In this document: positions 4,574 through 28,585 of the stretch, one piece after another | Layout: each line of letters begins with the position of its first letter | How positions within the stretch are numbered: the stretch's first letter is position 1 | Source: a virus | DNA length: 39,495 nucleotides | Virus record (IMG/VR): IMGVR_UViG_3300045283_000174 | Span: 1-39,495 of that record | Reading direction: 5' to 3' (one strand) | Notes under the pieces: model-generated | Databases searched by the model: none | What the model was told of the DNA's origin: nothing | What the model saw: only the letters and a program-made list of their open reading frames with translations | Translations under genes and position numbers: made by a program

Positions 4574-6700
4574 ATGCCCAATCGCGCCCAGCGTCAGGCG
4601 GACCTCTACCCCGCGCTCGACGAATCCTACATCGATTTCATGAGTCGCTGCGGCAGTGAGATCGGCGATCAGGACGTGTGCCAACTGATCTGGGACGACG
4701 CCTGGGACAAGGGCGCGCCGGCTTCGACGACGAAAGACGTCGTCTATAAAACCCACGCCGCCAAGGTCAACGGCCAGGAGTTCGTGCTCTCGGACGAGAC
4801 GCCCGACCGCATGGATGACGTGATCATGTCGGATGGCTGGGACCTGGCATCGTTTCAGCGGAACCCGATCGCGCTGTTCAATCACAACAGCAATGCGCCG
4901 ATCGGCAAGTGGGCGAACGTGCGCGTCGTCGACAAACAACTGCGCGGCCACCTCGAGCTCGCGCCCGCCGGCACCAGCGACCGCATCGACGAGATCCGCA
5001 AGCTGATCGACGCCGGAATTCTGCGCGCCGTCAGTGTCGGTTTCCGCCCGAAGGAGTCCAAGCCGCGGCCGGAATCCGATTTCGGCATGTTCTTCACCAG
5101 GGCCGAATTGGTGGAGACTTCGCTGGTCAGTGTTCCAGCGAATCCCAACGCCTTGGCGATCGCCAAGTCGCTCAAGATTTCACCCGTGACCATCGATCTC
5201 GTTTTCGCCGGGAAAGGCAAAGAACGCGGGATCAGACGACGCGGGTTCACCGGCGGGCAAGCCGACACGTCATCGCGAATAATTGGAAAGGGCGCGACCA
5301 TGTCGCTCGCTCAAAAGATCAAAGAGAGAGAAGCCTCTATCCTCGACAAGACCGGCAAGCTCGATGCGCTGCACGACGCTGTCGGCGACGGCGACTATCC
5401 CAACGATTTGCTCGAGACGGTGAAAAAGGCGAACGCCGAGATTGCGCACGACCGGGAGATCCTGGCGACGCTGCGCGACAGCGAACGCAATCTCGCCGTG
5501 AACAGTGACGACGGCGGCCGATTGCCTGCGGTGATCAAGCAAGGCAACGGCAGCTATAGCGCGCCGCAACTGCAACGACCGTTCGGCGTCGAACGCAAAA
5601 AGCTCGATCCGATCGATCTGCTTTGCCGCTCGGCCGCATTGCGCCTACTCGCACATCACGAGCACAAGTCGCCGATGGAGGTCACGCGCGCGCTCTATGG
5701 CAACGACGAGCCGCTCGCGGCGGTGGTCGATTGGCAGACCAGGGCGGCCTCGGCCGCAGCCATGACCACGGTCACCGGCTGGGCGAAAGAGCTGGCGCAA
5801 CAGGTCGTCGCCGACTTCATGCAAATCCTGATGCCGGCCTCGATATTCGGGCCGCTGTCGAACATGGGCGTGGCGCTCGGGTTTGGCCGCAACGCCAAAA
5901 TCATTGTCCCGACACGGTCAAGGACGCCGACCATCGCCGGGTCGTTCGTCGGGGAAGGGTTGCCGATTCCGGTTCGCCAGGGTGCGTTTACATCGCTCTC
6001 GCTGACGCCGATGAAAATGGCGGTCATTACGACCTGGACGCGCGAGCTCGACGAGCATTCGATCCCGGCGATCGAGGGGTTGTTGCGTGATGCCATCGTC
6101 TCCGACACCGCGGTTGCGACCGACGCCGTTCTGCTCGACGCCAATCCGGCGACGACGATCCGGCCAGCCGGCATCCTCAACGGCGTCGCCGGCCTGACCC
6201 CGACGGCCGGCGGCGGCTTTGCCGCACTCACCGGCGACATCAAGCAATTGTCGGGGGCCTTGCTGACCGGCACGCTCGGCAACGTGCGCAAGCCGGTCTG
6301 GTTGATGAACCCGCAACAGGTCAACAGCGCGGGCTTTGCCATCGCCACCGGCGCCGGCGTATTCCCGTTCCGGGACGAGATTGGCCAGGGCCGCCTCGGC
6401 GGCTGGCCGATCATCCAGAGCGGCACGGTGCCGGCGGGAACTGTCATCGTCATTGACGCCGCGGACTTCGTCAGCGTCACCGGTGATGGGCCACGGTTTG
6501 AGATCAGCGACCAGGCCACGCTGCATATGGAAGACACCTCACCCTCCGACATCTCGACGACGGGCACGCCTGCCGTGGTCGCCTTCCCGGTCAAGAGCAT
6601 GTTCCAGACCGACATGCTGGCCTTGCGGCTGATCATGCCGATGACCTGGGCGATCCGCCGCACTGGTACGGTCGCTTGGGTCGCCGGCGTGACCTGGTAA
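4574..6700 (+). CDS. Fused HK97-type prohead protease and major capsid protein
   Basis: This 708-residue polyprotein carries the maturation protease, a coiled-coil scaffold segment and the shell protein in one frame. Residues about 50-205 are an S78-type protease with candidate catalytic His104 (LFNHN) and Ser154 (RAVSVGF), then ELVETSLVSVPANPNA. Residues about 243-320 are charged and helical, like the HK97 delta domain. From about 370 the HK97 capsid fold follows (GFGRNAKIIVPTR, FVGEGLPIPV, TRELDEHS, PVWLMNP). Separate protease and capsid genes are commoner, though fusions are known. An in-frame ATG at 5300 with its own ribosome binding site could yield a scaffold-capsid protein without protease. 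Confidence 0.9.
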   Translation: MPNRAQRQADLYPALDESYIDFMSRCGSEIGDQDVCQLIWDDAWDKGAPASTTKDVVYKTHAAKVNGQEFVLSDETPDRMDDVIMSDGWDLASFQRNPIALFNHNSNAPIGKWANVRVVDKQLRGHLELAPAGTSDRIDEIRKLIDAGILRAVSVGFRPKESKPRPESDFGMFFTRAELVETSLVSVPANPNALAIAKSLKISPVTIDLVFAGKGKERGIRRRGFTGGQADTSSRIIGKGATMSLAQKIKEREASILDKTGKLDALHDAVGDGDYPNDLLETVKKANAEIAHDREILATLRDSERNLAVNSDDGGRLPAVIKQGNGSYSAPQLQRPFGVERKKLDPIDLLCRSAALRLLAHHEHKSPMEVTRALYGNDEPLAAVVDWQTRAASAAAMTTVTGWAKELAQQVVADFMQILMPASIFGPLSNMGVALGFGRNAKIIVPTRSRTPTIAGSFVGEGLPIPVRQGAFTSLSLTPMKMAVITTWTRELDEHSIPAIEGLLRDAIVSDTAVATDAVLLDANPATTIRPAGILNGVAGLTPTAGGGFAALTGDIKQLSGALLTGTLGNVRKPVWLMNPQQVNSAGFAIATGAGVFPFRDEIGQGRLGGWPIIQSGTVPAGTVIVIDAADFVSVTGDGPRFEISDQATLHMEDTSPSDISTTGTPAVVAFPVKSMFQTDMLALRLIMPMTWAIRRTGTVAWVAGVTW
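5285..5302 (+). promoter_or_regulatory. Internal ribosome binding site and in-frame ATG in the capsid fusion
   Basis: GGAAAGGG at 5285-5292 lies seven bases before ATG 5300, codon 243 of the fusion. Initiation here would give a 466-residue delta-domain plus capsid protein, a usual size for HK97-like capsid precursors. This resembles the nested in-frame start of lambda C/Nu3. Confidence 0.55.
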
Positions 6701-25231: not shown

Positions 25232-25474
25232 TCATTGGTTAGCCCTATGGTTGCGAGGTGGCGGGATCGGGCCGTCGACGTCGAGCAGGTCAACTTCGGT
25301 AACGCCGAGCGCGGCGGCGATGTCGGGCAGCCGGCTGCGTGGATTGCTTTGATCGGATTCCCATCGTTTGATCGTTCTGACTGTGGCGTTGAGTAGGGCG
25401 GCGAGCTCGGCCTGTGTGACGGGTGGGATGCGACTGCAACGGACTGCGTGAAGCCTTTGACCTAGGCTTACCAT
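25232..25474 (-). CDS. XRE-family (Cro/CI-type) transcriptional regulator
   Basis: This 80-residue protein is a lambda-repressor-like HTH: TQAELAALLNATVRTIKRWE (about 23-42) with SRLPDIAAALGVTEVDLLD after it. It has only the DNA-binding domain, with no cleavable dimerisation domain, so control would not be by RecA-type autocleavage. ATG 25474 has AGAGGA about 5 bases upstream; a longer frame to 25636 adds 54 non-conserved-looking residues. It diverges from the ribbon-helix-helix gene at 25743 across a palindrome. It is the best lysogeny repressor candidate. Confidence 0.8.
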   Translation of the reverse strand: MVSLGQRLHAVRCSRIPPVTQAELAALLNATVRTIKRWESDQSNPRSRLPDIAAALGVTEVDLLDVDGPIPPPRNHRANQ

Positions 25475-25742
25475 TTGATCCTCTCGGGTGCGGCGAGGGT
25501 GTTGGTGCGACCTCATTTTTGCCTCTGGCGGGTGACACTTCTTTTCTGATGCTTTCCTGACAGGAAAAACCGTTTTGGACGGTTCGTCAACTGCCGATAG
25601 GCGACGCCACTTATCCAAACGTATATTTTTTTCCATGCCGAGTTCCCGCTCTATTTTGTCTATTGATGAGATAATCGGCGTCGCTTATGGGTGACATAAG
25701 CGATGTCGTGTTTACCGCCATATCCCTATTGGCGGGGGGTTG
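25475..25742. promoter_or_regulatory. Divergent control region with a palindromic operator candidate
   Basis: This gap separates the leftward XRE gene from the rightward RHH gene. It is AT-richer near 25620-25680, where promoters are likely. At 25679-25705 arms CGTCGCTTATG and CATAAGCGATG pair at 10 of 11 positions around GGTGA. GGCGGGGGG at 25731-25739 precedes the RHH start and may be its ribosome binding site. Apart from the possible N-terminal extension of the XRE frame I see no gene here. Confidence 0.6.
25679..25705. promoter_or_regulatory. Operator-like inverted repeat
   Basis: Eleven-base arms (one mismatch) with a five-base spacer form a 27-bp dyad between two divergently transcribed DNA-binding-protein genes. 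Dyads of this size are typical for HTH dimer binding. Which of the two proteins binds is unknown. Confidence 0.55.
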
Positions 25743-26006: not shown

Positions 26007-26193
26007 GGTGCGAACGTCGTTGCGGTTTTGCCTATGAAATGCGGGTCGGGAAACGTTCTCACTTTCGGCCAAGCCTTTGATCTTGGCCGCTTTTCGCAGT
26101 CCCTCCACTCCTGCCAGGCGGTCACTTTTGTTCTGCATTTTCAATCACTTAGCAAAGGTGCGAACGCTGGGTGCGAACGTCGGACTCGCATGC
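26007..26193 (-). repeat. Structured intergenic repeat, copy A
   Basis: This is the most diverged of three related intergenic segments. It shares the 17-bp block at 26102-26118 (CCTCCACTCCTGCCAGG) and an identical 33-bp block at 26134-26166 with copies B and C. It carries three GGTGCGAACG units (26007, 26157, 26170). It follows the methyltransferase stop but has no recognisable leftward gene after it. It lacks the GTGGCATCAC/GTGATGCCAC dyad of the other copies. Confidence 0.8.
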
Positions 26194-26201
26194 TTGACAC
26201 T

Positions 26202-26741
26202 TTAGGGGTCGGTTTCGTTCTCAAACAACCGCATCGGGCGATGATCGCCGGACCATTCCTGCCAAGCGGCGGTAACCGCCCCGGTCCCAGGAAATAGATC
26301 AACAAATTCGTCGCCACGTTGTAGGCCCAAGATCTCGAATAGCCATCGGCAGAAGGCGCGCGGCTTCGCGCCGGTAAGTCCGCGTTTGAGTGTGATCGAT
26401 TCCGCAACCCAATCCCGCACAGTGTCTTGCTCGCGCGACCGGCGTCTACCGCCGCGCCAGATCACGGGTTCCCAGGCATAGGCAACACCCACGTTGGCCT
26501 TGAAGGCGGCGAACGGTTTGACCCATGCGCTGACGCGACAATCAGGCGGGCACATGGGGAGGATCGTTGCAAGCGATGGTGAGCTAAGCGACAATGCCCA
26601 CCCGTCGGGGAAACCACCGCACAGTCCCGCAATCAGTCTTTCGTGTACGCTCGGTCGATCCCAATCGAGCGCGTCAAGATGCTGTGCCGCGTATAACTTA
26701 CCGCACCCGAGGTACGGCGGGTCAGCATAGGCAATTTTCAT
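26202..26741 (-). CDS. Small DNA methyltransferase, probable N6-adenine type
   Basis: This 179-residue protein opens MKIAYADPPYLGCGK, with motif IV (DPPY) within ten residues. It has motif I-like DLFPGTGAVTAAW near 147-159, again a motif IV before motif I arrangement. The middle carries AWEPVIWRGGRR. ATG 26741 is preferred though no clear Shine-Dalgarno is present. The same frame is open to 26897 through repeat copy B, but that part is shared non-genic repeat. It lies between copies A and B. Compact phage enzymes of this kind methylate DNA against restriction. Confidence 0.8.
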   Translation of the reverse strand: MKIAYADPPYLGCGKLYAAQHLDALDWDRPSVHERLIAGLCGGFPDGWALSLSSPSLATILPMCPPDCRVSAWVKPFAAFKANVGVAYAWEPVIWRGGRRRSREQDTVRDWVAESITLKRGLTGAKPRAFCRWLFEILGLQRGDEFVDLFPGTGAVTAAWQEWSGDHRPMRLFENETDP

Positions 26742-26760
26742 GTTGTTATCTGGTTTGTCG

Positions 26761-26945
26761 GTGGCATCACGTTGCGGGTTTCCAGCGGGATTCGGGGGTG
26801 TTCCGGTGATGCCACTTTCGGCTAAGTCCTTGTTCCAGCGGCATTTCCGCGTAGCCTCCACTCCTGCCAGGTGGTGGTTTTTCTTCTGCATTTTCAATCA
26901 CTTAGCAAAGGTGCGAACGTCAGGTGCGAACGCCGGACTCGCATG
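26761..26945 (-). repeat. Structured intergenic repeat, copy B
   Basis: It contains GTGGCATCAC (26761-26770) and GTGATGCCAC (26806-26815), a perfect 10-bp dyad with a 35-base loop, 20 bases upstream of the methyltransferase ATG. The 17-bp block (26855-26871), the 33-bp block (26887-26919) and two GGTGCGAACG units 13 bases apart (26910, 26923) follow. It is collinear with copy C almost throughout. Confidence 0.9.
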
Positions 26946-26997
26946 CAGGGTCAGTTTTGTTCTCGGGTTCGGCGCCATTCAGCAAGATAGCCACCCC

Positions 26998-27312
26998 TCA
27001 CGTCCTATCTTCGCTTAAACGCTTCGTGTGTTTTTCCACTACCTTCATCAGCTTCGCTTGCACGCGCCGATCCAACTTATCTCCCTCGATCCCGAAACAC
27101 CGCGCCAGCAATTCGAGGTACACGCGGATGTCGGCGATCTCGTCGCGGATTTCTTCGGTGAAGTCTGCATCATCGCGCCAGCGCTTCTTGATGTAATTGG
27201 CGAGTTCGCCAGCCTCGCCGCAAAGTGCGAGCGCAAGAAAGCGCTCATCCTTGGATAAATATGCCGGGAAGAGATGGGCGGTCATTCGTTCGTGAAGCTC
27301 GAAAAGGCCCAT
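26998..27312 (-). CDS. MazG-like nucleotide pyrophosphohydrolase
   Basis: This 104-residue protein has the all-alpha NTP-PPase pattern: LALCGEAGELANYIKKRWRD (about 29-48), then EEIRDEIADIRVYLELLA. The acidic residues of EAGE and EIADI would bind magnesium. Such enzymes hydrolyse (d)NTPs to monophosphates. In phages they may blunt ppGpp signalling or cleanse non-canonical nucleotides; the substrate here is not known. GAGGG about 6 bases before ATG 27312 supports the start. Repeat copy C ends 19 bases upstream of that ATG. Confidence 0.8.
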   Translation of the reverse strand: MGLFELHERMTAHLFPAYLSKDERFLALALCGEAGELANYIKKRWRDDADFTEEIRDEIADIRVYLELLARCFGIEGDKLDRRVQAKLMKVVEKHTKRLSEDRT

Positions 27313-27331
27313 GATAACCCTCGTTCGTTGG

Positions 27332-27508
27332 GTGGCATCACATATCGGGTTTGCGGCCCATTTCGCGGGTGTTCCGGTGATGCCACTTTTGGCTAAGTGA
27401 TTGTTCCAGCATCATTTCCGCGTAGCCTCCACTCCTGCCAGGTGGGTAGTTTTCTCTTGCATTTTCAATCACTTAGCAAAGGTGCGAACGTCAGGTGCGA
27501 ACGTGGAC
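27332..27508 (-). repeat. Structured intergenic repeat, copy C
   Basis: It has the same elements as copy B: dyad 27332-27341 / 27377-27386 with a 35-base loop, 17-bp block 27426-27442, 33-bp block 27458-27490, and GGTGCGAACG units at 27481 and 27494. It starts, in the leftward sense, directly at the integrase stop codon and ends 19 bases before the MazG start. It fills practically the whole intergenic space. Confidence 0.9.
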
Positions 27509-28585
27509 TCACCCCCGCTGCGCCAGGAACGGCATCGCAGCCGCGGCCCCGCGCCCTCGCTCGGCGAGATTGATGTACGCCTGCGCCTGCGCCGGGGTCG
27601 ACCAGTCGTACACCGCCATGAGCTGGTAATGGCTGGCGCCGGCCATCGCCGCCCGCATGGCGCCGAGCTTGCGCAGGCCGTGCGCGGTGCAGTCGTCGAG
27701 GCCGACCTTGCGGCATTGGTCGGCGAACCAACTCCCGAACCCCGCAACGCTGAACGGCTTGCCGTAGTCGGTCACGAGAAACGTGTCGCGGCCCTGCAGC
27801 TTGGTCGCCGCAACGATGCGGGCGAGCTCGGGCAGGAAGGGCTTCGGGGTGGCCTGGTTGCGAATGCGCTTCGTCTTTCGCGGCACGAAGCGGATCATGC
27901 CGTCGCGCACGCAGGCAGGGCCGAGGCCGACGACGTCGCTACGGCGCGCGCCGGTGAATAGCAACAATCCCAATGCCAGCCGTTGTTTGGTCCCGACCGG
28001 ATAGGCGTCCTCGAATTTGACCAGGTCGGTCTCGGTCCAGGGGCGGAAGCCGGTCGACTCGTATTTCAGCTTCTGGACGTCGCGCACCGGGTTCGATGCG
28101 ACCGAGTCCGGCAGGTTTTCGAGACCCCATCCGAACATCGCCGATAGATATTTCATGCGGTTGTTGGCGGCGCCCGGCTGCGCCGCTCGGCGATCGCGCA
28201 GCAGCCTGACTTGGCTCGGCCCGAACAGCGTCAGCGGACACTCGGCCATGAGCCGCGAGCTACCCGCGACGGCGACCTCGCGCAAGCAACTCTCGATAAC
28301 CGACATGCGGGTGCCCTGCGACTTGACGTCGAGGTTGCGGAACATCGGCGAGGCAAAGTATTGGCCGGCGAGCCAGCGCAGCGTGCCTTTGCGAATCTCT
28401 GTGGACTTGCCCAGCGGCTGCCCGAGCTCGGCGACGGCGCTCTCGTAGCTGGCCATGAAGCCGGGGGCGCCGAACGGCTCGCGGATTCGGATGCGGCGGC
28501 GCTTGCCGGTCCCACCGATCACGTAGACGACCTCGCGTCCGTGGCGGTTGCGCTCGACGCTTAGATACTTCAGCCGCACCTTCAT
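27509..28585 (-). CDS. int: Tyrosine site-specific integrase
   Basis: This 358-residue recombinase integrates and excises the phage. The catalytic set is visible: Arg214 in FTGARRSDVVGL, Lys near 237-239 (RKTKR), His302 and Arg305 (AHGLRKLGAM), Trp328 in the second-His position (VYDWST), and nucleophile Tyr337 (AQAYINL). An N-terminal arm-binding/core-binding part precedes. The ATG overlaps the stop of the upstream gene as ATGA. No attP core could be recognised. The position close to repressor and MazG fits a lysogeny region. Confidence 0.92.
   Translation of the reverse strand: MKVRLKYLSVERNRHGREVVYVIGGTGKRRRIRIREPFGAPGFMASYESAVAELGQPLGKSTEIRKGTLRWLAGQYFASPMFRNLDVKSQGTRMSVIESCLREVAVAGSSRLMAECPLTLFGPSQVRLLRDRRAAQPGAANNRMKYLSAMFGWGLENLPDSVASNPVRDVQKLKYESTGFRPWTETDLVKFEDAYPVGTKQRLALGLLLFTGARRSDVVGLGPACVRDGMIRFVPRKTKRIRNQATPKPFLPELARIVAATKLQGRDTFLVTDYGKPFSVAGFGSWFADQCRKVGLDDCTAHGLRKLGAMRAAMAGASHYQLMAVYDWSTPAQAQAYINLAERGRGAAAAMPFLAQRG

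Follow-up and report, generated by a model that had tools for sequence, protein, structure and literature searches.

By what route a temperate phage comes to carry single accessory genes beside its integrase gene is an old question, and the usual answer is illegitimate or homologous recombination. The locus described here raises this question again. In the window (the whole stretch of DNA that was analysed, 39.5 kb), an integrase gene is followed on the minus strand by an array in the order int - site C - mazG - site B - methyltransferase gene - site A, in which three related repeats of about 180 bp alternate with single genes. What are these repeats, and how did they come to surround single genes? 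As set out below, each of them is, with near certainty, a lambda-type phage attachment site (attP).

Three related repeats alternate with single genes

The source record is a metagenomic contig without end repeats. The first-pass annotation had noticed three repeats in the gaps between its genes, and these are real: they are direct copies, all on the minus strand. The components of the array are the following.

26007..26193, minus strand: site A, ordinary attP of this phage group, with left arms, core, and right arms of the same motif
26202..26741, minus strand: cargo gene 2, small DNA methyltransferase-like protein, 179 aa, with DPPY and FPGTG motifs
26760..26945, minus strand: site B, hybrid, of the same type as C
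26998..27312, minus strand: cargo gene 1, MazG-like pyrophosphohydrolase, 104 aa (Pfam PF12643, E 5.6e-7; PHROG, E 5.5e-9)
27331..27508, minus strand: site C, hybrid, with the left arm of this phage group, the core, and a right arm with GTGGCATCAC
27509..28585, minus strand: tyrosine integrase gene int, 358 aa (Pfam PF00589, E 2.9e-8; PHROG integrase, E 3.7e-27)

B and C match each other at 88% of positions over 173 nt, and A and B are 68% identical. The three copies have in common the 33-bp block CGTTCGCACCTTTGCTAAGTGATTGAAAATGCA and the 17-bp block CCTGGCAGGAGTGGAGG, both as first described, and a further 12-bp block, GACGTTCGCACC; the longest exact match among them is 46 bp. The motif CGTTCGCACC has seven exact matches in the window, and all seven lie inside the repeats. 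Site C does start at the stop codon of int, and the next ATG does follow 19-20 nt beyond the ends of B and of C, as had been stated. The proposed collinearity holds in full for B and C, whereas A is collinear only on its left side through the 17-bp block, past which it is about 47% identical to B and C. The core-to-core segments measure 571 and 753 bp, and each contains one gene and no integrase. For cargo gene 2, the Pfam match to D12 methyltransferases is weak (E 0.0028, below the cut-off), and among its ten phage relatives one bears the annotation DNA methyltransferase. To the left of attP, at 25235-25636 of the window, lies a small HTH repressor-like gene, in what is likely a lysogeny regulator region.

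The repeat accompanies the integrase gene

A scan with the integrase identified five viral contigs (L007-L011) with 85-95% identical integrases, L006 being the same contig as L008. Each related contig carries one A-type copy downstream of int, with no gene or one gene between them (L006, L007, L009-L011). No gene separates int from the attachment-site copy in L009 and L010, and a single gene, different in each, occupies the int-attP interval of L006, L007, and L011. As the related phages keep the element downstream of int, it belongs to int and not to the accessory genes. In phage phi2LM21, whose integrase is 38% identical, the annotated attachment site lies about 105 bp after int. In the tRNA-Trp-integrated contigs L059, L064, L065, L067, and L073, an integrase of 32-49% identity stands just before the arm sites, the core, and the tRNA. 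A broader integrase alignment against bacterial genomes gave 39 relatives, many of them beside tRNA-Phe, Leu, Tyr, or Met, and these distant relatives keep the order int - arms - tRNA end.

The core corresponds to the 3' end of tRNA-Trp

Read in reverse complement, the 17-bp block common to the three copies is the 3' end of tRNA-Trp(CCA), and in A-type copies this block extends to the 19-mer TGGCAGGAGTGGAGGGACT. The cores are located as follows.

26098..26116, minus strand: core of site A, 19 bp, TGGCAGGAGTGGAGGGACT, identical to the tRNA-Trp 3' end in reverse complement
26855..26869, minus strand: core of site B, 15 bp
27426..27440, minus strand: core of site C, 15 bp, TGGCAGGAGTGGAGG, tRNA-Trp 3' end in reverse complement

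The peptide LAGVE, present in the open frames that run through the repeats, had been regarded as incidental, and it is indeed the translated tRNA 3' end. Scanning viral sequences with the 19-mer returned 23 matching stretches, and in six viral contigs (L059, L064, L065, L067, L070, and L073) the 19-mer is the reversed 3' end of a tRNA-Trp(CCA) gene. In the family of Azorhizobium, the 19-mer is present exactly once per genome in 50 of 101 genomes, and the bacterial loci fetched for it are full tRNA-Trp genes (30/30). The core followed by a G was found in none of 397 genomes of the order. Contigs G009, G010, and G015 each have two core sites, as expected for the two ends of an integrated element. 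A core of 15 bp suffices, since the att ends of the 11.3-kb element of G015 have these 15 bp in common. Judged from these sequence matches, the host target of the adjacent tyrosine integrase is almost certainly the 3' end of the tRNA-Trp gene.

Other elements were seen at the same tRNA gene. Contig 3300040946_000026 (L065) contains an 11.3-kb element, lying between two tRNA-Trp att ends and encoding its own integrase (32% identical). This element could represent a satellite or a small genomic island. The bacterial genomes G599 (L146, L147) and G614 (L148, L149) carry tRNA-Trp elements whose integrases are 46-50% identical and whose arm motif is TGCCCCACC, with the same spacing.

Each repeat has the anatomy of an attachment site

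In every copy, the core is flanked on the left by an IHF-like site and, farther out, by two tandem arm-type sites, and on the right by another IHF-like site followed by two arm-type sites. The 33-bp block contains one of the two tandem arm-type sites CGTTCGCACC together with one IHF-like site.

26157..26179, minus strand: tandem left arm-type sites CGTTCGCACC of site A (26170-26179 and 26157-26166)
26910..26932, minus strand: tandem left arm-type sites CGTTCGCACC of site B
27481..27503, minus strand: tandem left arm-type sites CGTTCGCACC of site C (27494-27503 and 27481-27490)
26141..26151 (A), 26894-26904 (B), and 27465-27475 (C), minus strand: first IHF-like site, TAAGTGATTGA, consensus match only
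26070..26079 (A), 26823-26832 (B), and 27394-27403 (C), minus strand: second IHF-like site, inverted relative to the first, consensus match only
26007..26062, minus strand: right arm pair of site A, GTGAGAACG (26054-26062) and CGTTCGCACC (26007-26016)
26761..26815, minus strand: right arm pair of site B, GTGGCATCAC / GTGATGCCAC
27332..27386, minus strand: right arm pair of site C, GTGGCATCAC (27377-27386) and GTGATGCCAC (27332-27341)

The IHF-like consensus matches are found at fixed places in the three copies (YAANNNNTTGA on the left and CAANNNNTTR on the right), at -35 and +37 and in opposite orientation. By analogy with lambda Int, the integrase and IHF would bind at these predicted sites. 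Among the phages and elements compared, each has its own short arm motif on both flanks of the core (GTTCGCACC, TGTCTAACC, TGCCAAACC, TGTCTCACC, or TGCCCCACC), and the places of the arms are kept despite the unrelated motifs, mostly at about -62 to -73 and at -49 on the left, and at +50/+53 and +101/+102 on the right. The right arm pair is direct in some phages, including L057, L058, L061, L063, L068, and L069, and inverted in others. In the only ordinary attP of this phage, the site at 26054-26062 reads GTGAGAACG, one base off the GTGCGAACG of five relatives.

The lambda attP has the layout P-core-P', with arm-type sites and IHF sites (PMC4880445). The repeats resemble it in lying beside int, in being near 200 bp long, and in having two clusters of arm sites that flank the core (PMC4880445). 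The core is copied from a tRNA 3' end, as in lambda-type attP sites, and candidate IHF sites, consensus matches only, lie between it and the arms. What differs is that one phage genome has three such sites and that two of these have unlike left and right arm motifs. The repeats are thus attP-like in kind and ordinary; it is their arrangement, three sites of which two are hybrid around single genes, that is unusual.

The first-pass annotation had instead proposed a portable 5' leader attached to each accessory gene, similar to start-associated repeats, and a regulatory RNA, perhaps structured, would be a variant of this idea. Such a reading could draw on the inverted repeats in each copy, on the start codon 19-20 nt past the ends of B and C, and on the right-arm pair, which changes on both sides between A and B/C. 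However, the dyad symmetry that hints at an RNA structure is due to the opposed IHF-like sequences and the inverted arm pair, and no hairpin is conserved, as the direct right arm sites of several relatives cannot form one. Relatives also show no gene start at a fixed place after the element, which follows int and is itself followed in several of them by convergent or non-coding DNA, and conservation is highest in a block that is a tRNA 3' end. A leader or regulatory RNA is therefore hardly tenable. Rfam returned no family at the gathering score (best permissive E-value 0.64), and BLASTN of copy B against phage and plasmid collections gave no real match. An HTH-like protein encoded by the open frame through the repeat (LAGVE..LAES..) was also considered and rejected: its Pfam matches are weak (TetR, E 0.03-0.05), tblastn with this frame found no relative, and the tRNA end explains the frame.

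Sites B and C are hybrids joined at the core

Site A has one and the same motif in its left and right arms, apart from a single altered base in the first right arm. B and C carry CGTTCGCACC on the left and the pair GTGGCATCAC / GTGATGCCAC on the right, at the usual distances from the core, and GTGGCATCAC is absent from their left halves. When B or C is compared with A, L007, or L006, the identity is 0.76-0.90 through the last base of TGGCAGGAGTGGAGG and then falls to 0.47-0.52. The best change-point is this last core base in four comparisons (B-A, C-A, B-L007, and C-L006), and a switch as strong was observed in 0-3 of 2000 permutations; in the comparison of B with L011, the change-point lies further right. 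The right halves of B and C are 81% identical to each other. The left halves of A, B, and C are 76-81% alike and are no closer to each other than to those of other phages. The left half of C is nearest L006 in 85% of bootstraps and that of B is ambiguous between A and L007, affinities that rest on few sites. B and C are hybrids joined at the core, whose left half and core are those of this phage group, and they are best explained as composed of halves of two different viruses. A search for the second parent by arm motif gave no phage with the GTGGCATCAC arm pair.

A junction of a related kind may exist in a chromosome. At 9855-9873 of L060 (contig 3300036820_000021, G010), an att site at the far end of an integrated prophage has arm-like repeats on both sides. 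Its left-arm-like half has no adjoining integrase and is fused with the right half that belongs to the prophage next to it, the arm motifs there being similar. This is only suggestive of a hybrid junction left at tRNA-Trp by an older neighbour.

The int-attP interval is a cargo hot spot

In the related phages, the interval between int and attP is a hot spot for cargo. Its single genes lie at L006:8643-9065, L007:5074-5275, and L011:5081-5441, and their frames end within the left arm, with the C-terminus ...ESDVRT and a stop from CACCTGA or CACCTAG. When the mazG frame of the window is read past its TGA (26920-27000), it gives the tail CESGVRT, like the C-termini of the L006, L007, and L011 cargo. 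This tail suggests that the gene plus its left arm is an older unit, as though mazG had once ended in the left arm as well.

Origin of the array

The position of the hybrid joint at the core suggests that the parts were joined at the sequence which the integrase itself targets. We consider it probable that the repeats are attachment sites of the adjacent integrase and that B and C were built by integrase-mediated recombination at att cores, and site-specific assembly of the array is accordingly the likely course of events. Related elements with a common tRNA-Trp target would have sat side by side in the host chromosome or met in one cell. Recombination between att cores, mediated by the integrase, would then have added a gene with an att half on either side to the end of the phage, and this would have happened at least twice, leaving int-C-mazG-B-methyltransferase-A. 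This history suggests a stepwise gain of single cargo genes beside the integrase through recombination at a tRNA-derived site, and the integrase may still excise or exchange the one-gene segments. An alternative offered in the first-pass annotation, boundary sequences that allow single-gene cassettes to be exchanged, fits well, the mechanism being recombination at the tRNA-derived att core.

Alternatively, a single hybrid att site could have arisen once, after which unequal crossing-over, within the left arm that the copies have in common (about 85-100 bp), produced a second hybrid and exchanged genes between the copies, the integrase playing no part after the first hybrid event. The common hybrid form of B and C and their similar right halves agree with this, the 46-bp exact repeat is enough for RecA-type or phage annealing recombination, and the left halves, 85 bp in length, could have been shuffled by homologous recombination once the first hybrid existed. 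On the other hand, the hybrid joint lies at the core, where the parents need only 15 bp in common. A recent local duplication is moreover unsupported, because the copies within this genome are as diverged as those of different phages and the left half of C is nearest L006. A single local tandem duplication, named in the first-pass annotation as a finding that would count against its reading, likewise disagrees with the different affinities of the halves and the switch at the core. Duplication after one hybrid event is therefore unlikely, although it is the strongest of the rival accounts. It is far less probable that the array is an assembly artefact, in which the contig merges phages of one population that differ in their int-attP gene. 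The metagenomic record without end repeats and the different genes at the same place in related phages would allow for such a merger. However, a chimeric contig is unlikely because the longest exact repeat is only 46 bp, and the right half of B and C is found in no relative, so a mix of known phages would not create it.

Each accessory gene of the array is bounded by attachment sites, two of them joined exactly at the tRNA-derived core, and the question of accessory gene gain is now testable with one integrase and three short sites. Sites B and C also provide natural hybrid att sites for the study of the arm-type specificity that controls which sites recombine.

Comparison with known systems

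In integrons, cassettes carry attC sites of 57-141 nt, which are folded as single strands and have R and L boxes, and the integrase is of the IntI type. The array resembles them in that a tyrosine recombinase gene is followed by single genes alternating with recombination sites. In contrast, the sites here are not attC but attP-like and double-stranded, with arms on both sides and a tRNA core, and int matches PHROG phage integrases. An integron-like phage system, in which circular one-gene cassettes are captured or exchanged at the attP of a temperate phage by its own integrase, is improbable. Each cassette would then have a hybrid att site, composed of the left arm of the resident integrase and a foreign right arm, and accessory genes would collect one by one between int and attP.

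The resemblance is closer to tandem accretion. CIMEs and tandem elements accrete at tRNA genes in chromosomes (PMC5704250), tandem mycobacterial prophages arise by attP x attL or attR recombination (PMC9934374), and in such systems a defective segment with att sites at its ends can be moved in cis (PMC5704250, PMC9934374). The array has in common with tandem ICEs, IMEs, CIMEs, and prophages the chimeric att junctions between elements that share attB: the junctions in B and C are joined at the core, and their arm motifs differ between left and right. In contrast, tandem accretion is known for chromosomes and multi-gene elements, whereas the present case is a phage-genome record with single-gene segments. 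Our literature search found tandem accretion described, and no phage array of single genes. The GIsul2 integrase excises a small CR2-sul2 unit separately via an internal third site, attLR (PMC9376610). GIsul2 thus combines an integrase with an internal third att site, as does the array, but it is a genomic island and not a phage, and it has neither a tRNA-Trp core nor an arm-type switch.

Among the 22 other records with the core or a close integrase, none has a three-site array, the number of sites being at most one or two. Near the integrase relatives, only 2 of 36 tRNA ends recur inside their locus. In L041, a 15-nt tRNA-Leu end is present twice (positions 4667 and 7188); the extra copy, on the side of int, is 2.5 kb away from the tRNA gene, and the pair is perhaps another multi-att arrangement or a small element.
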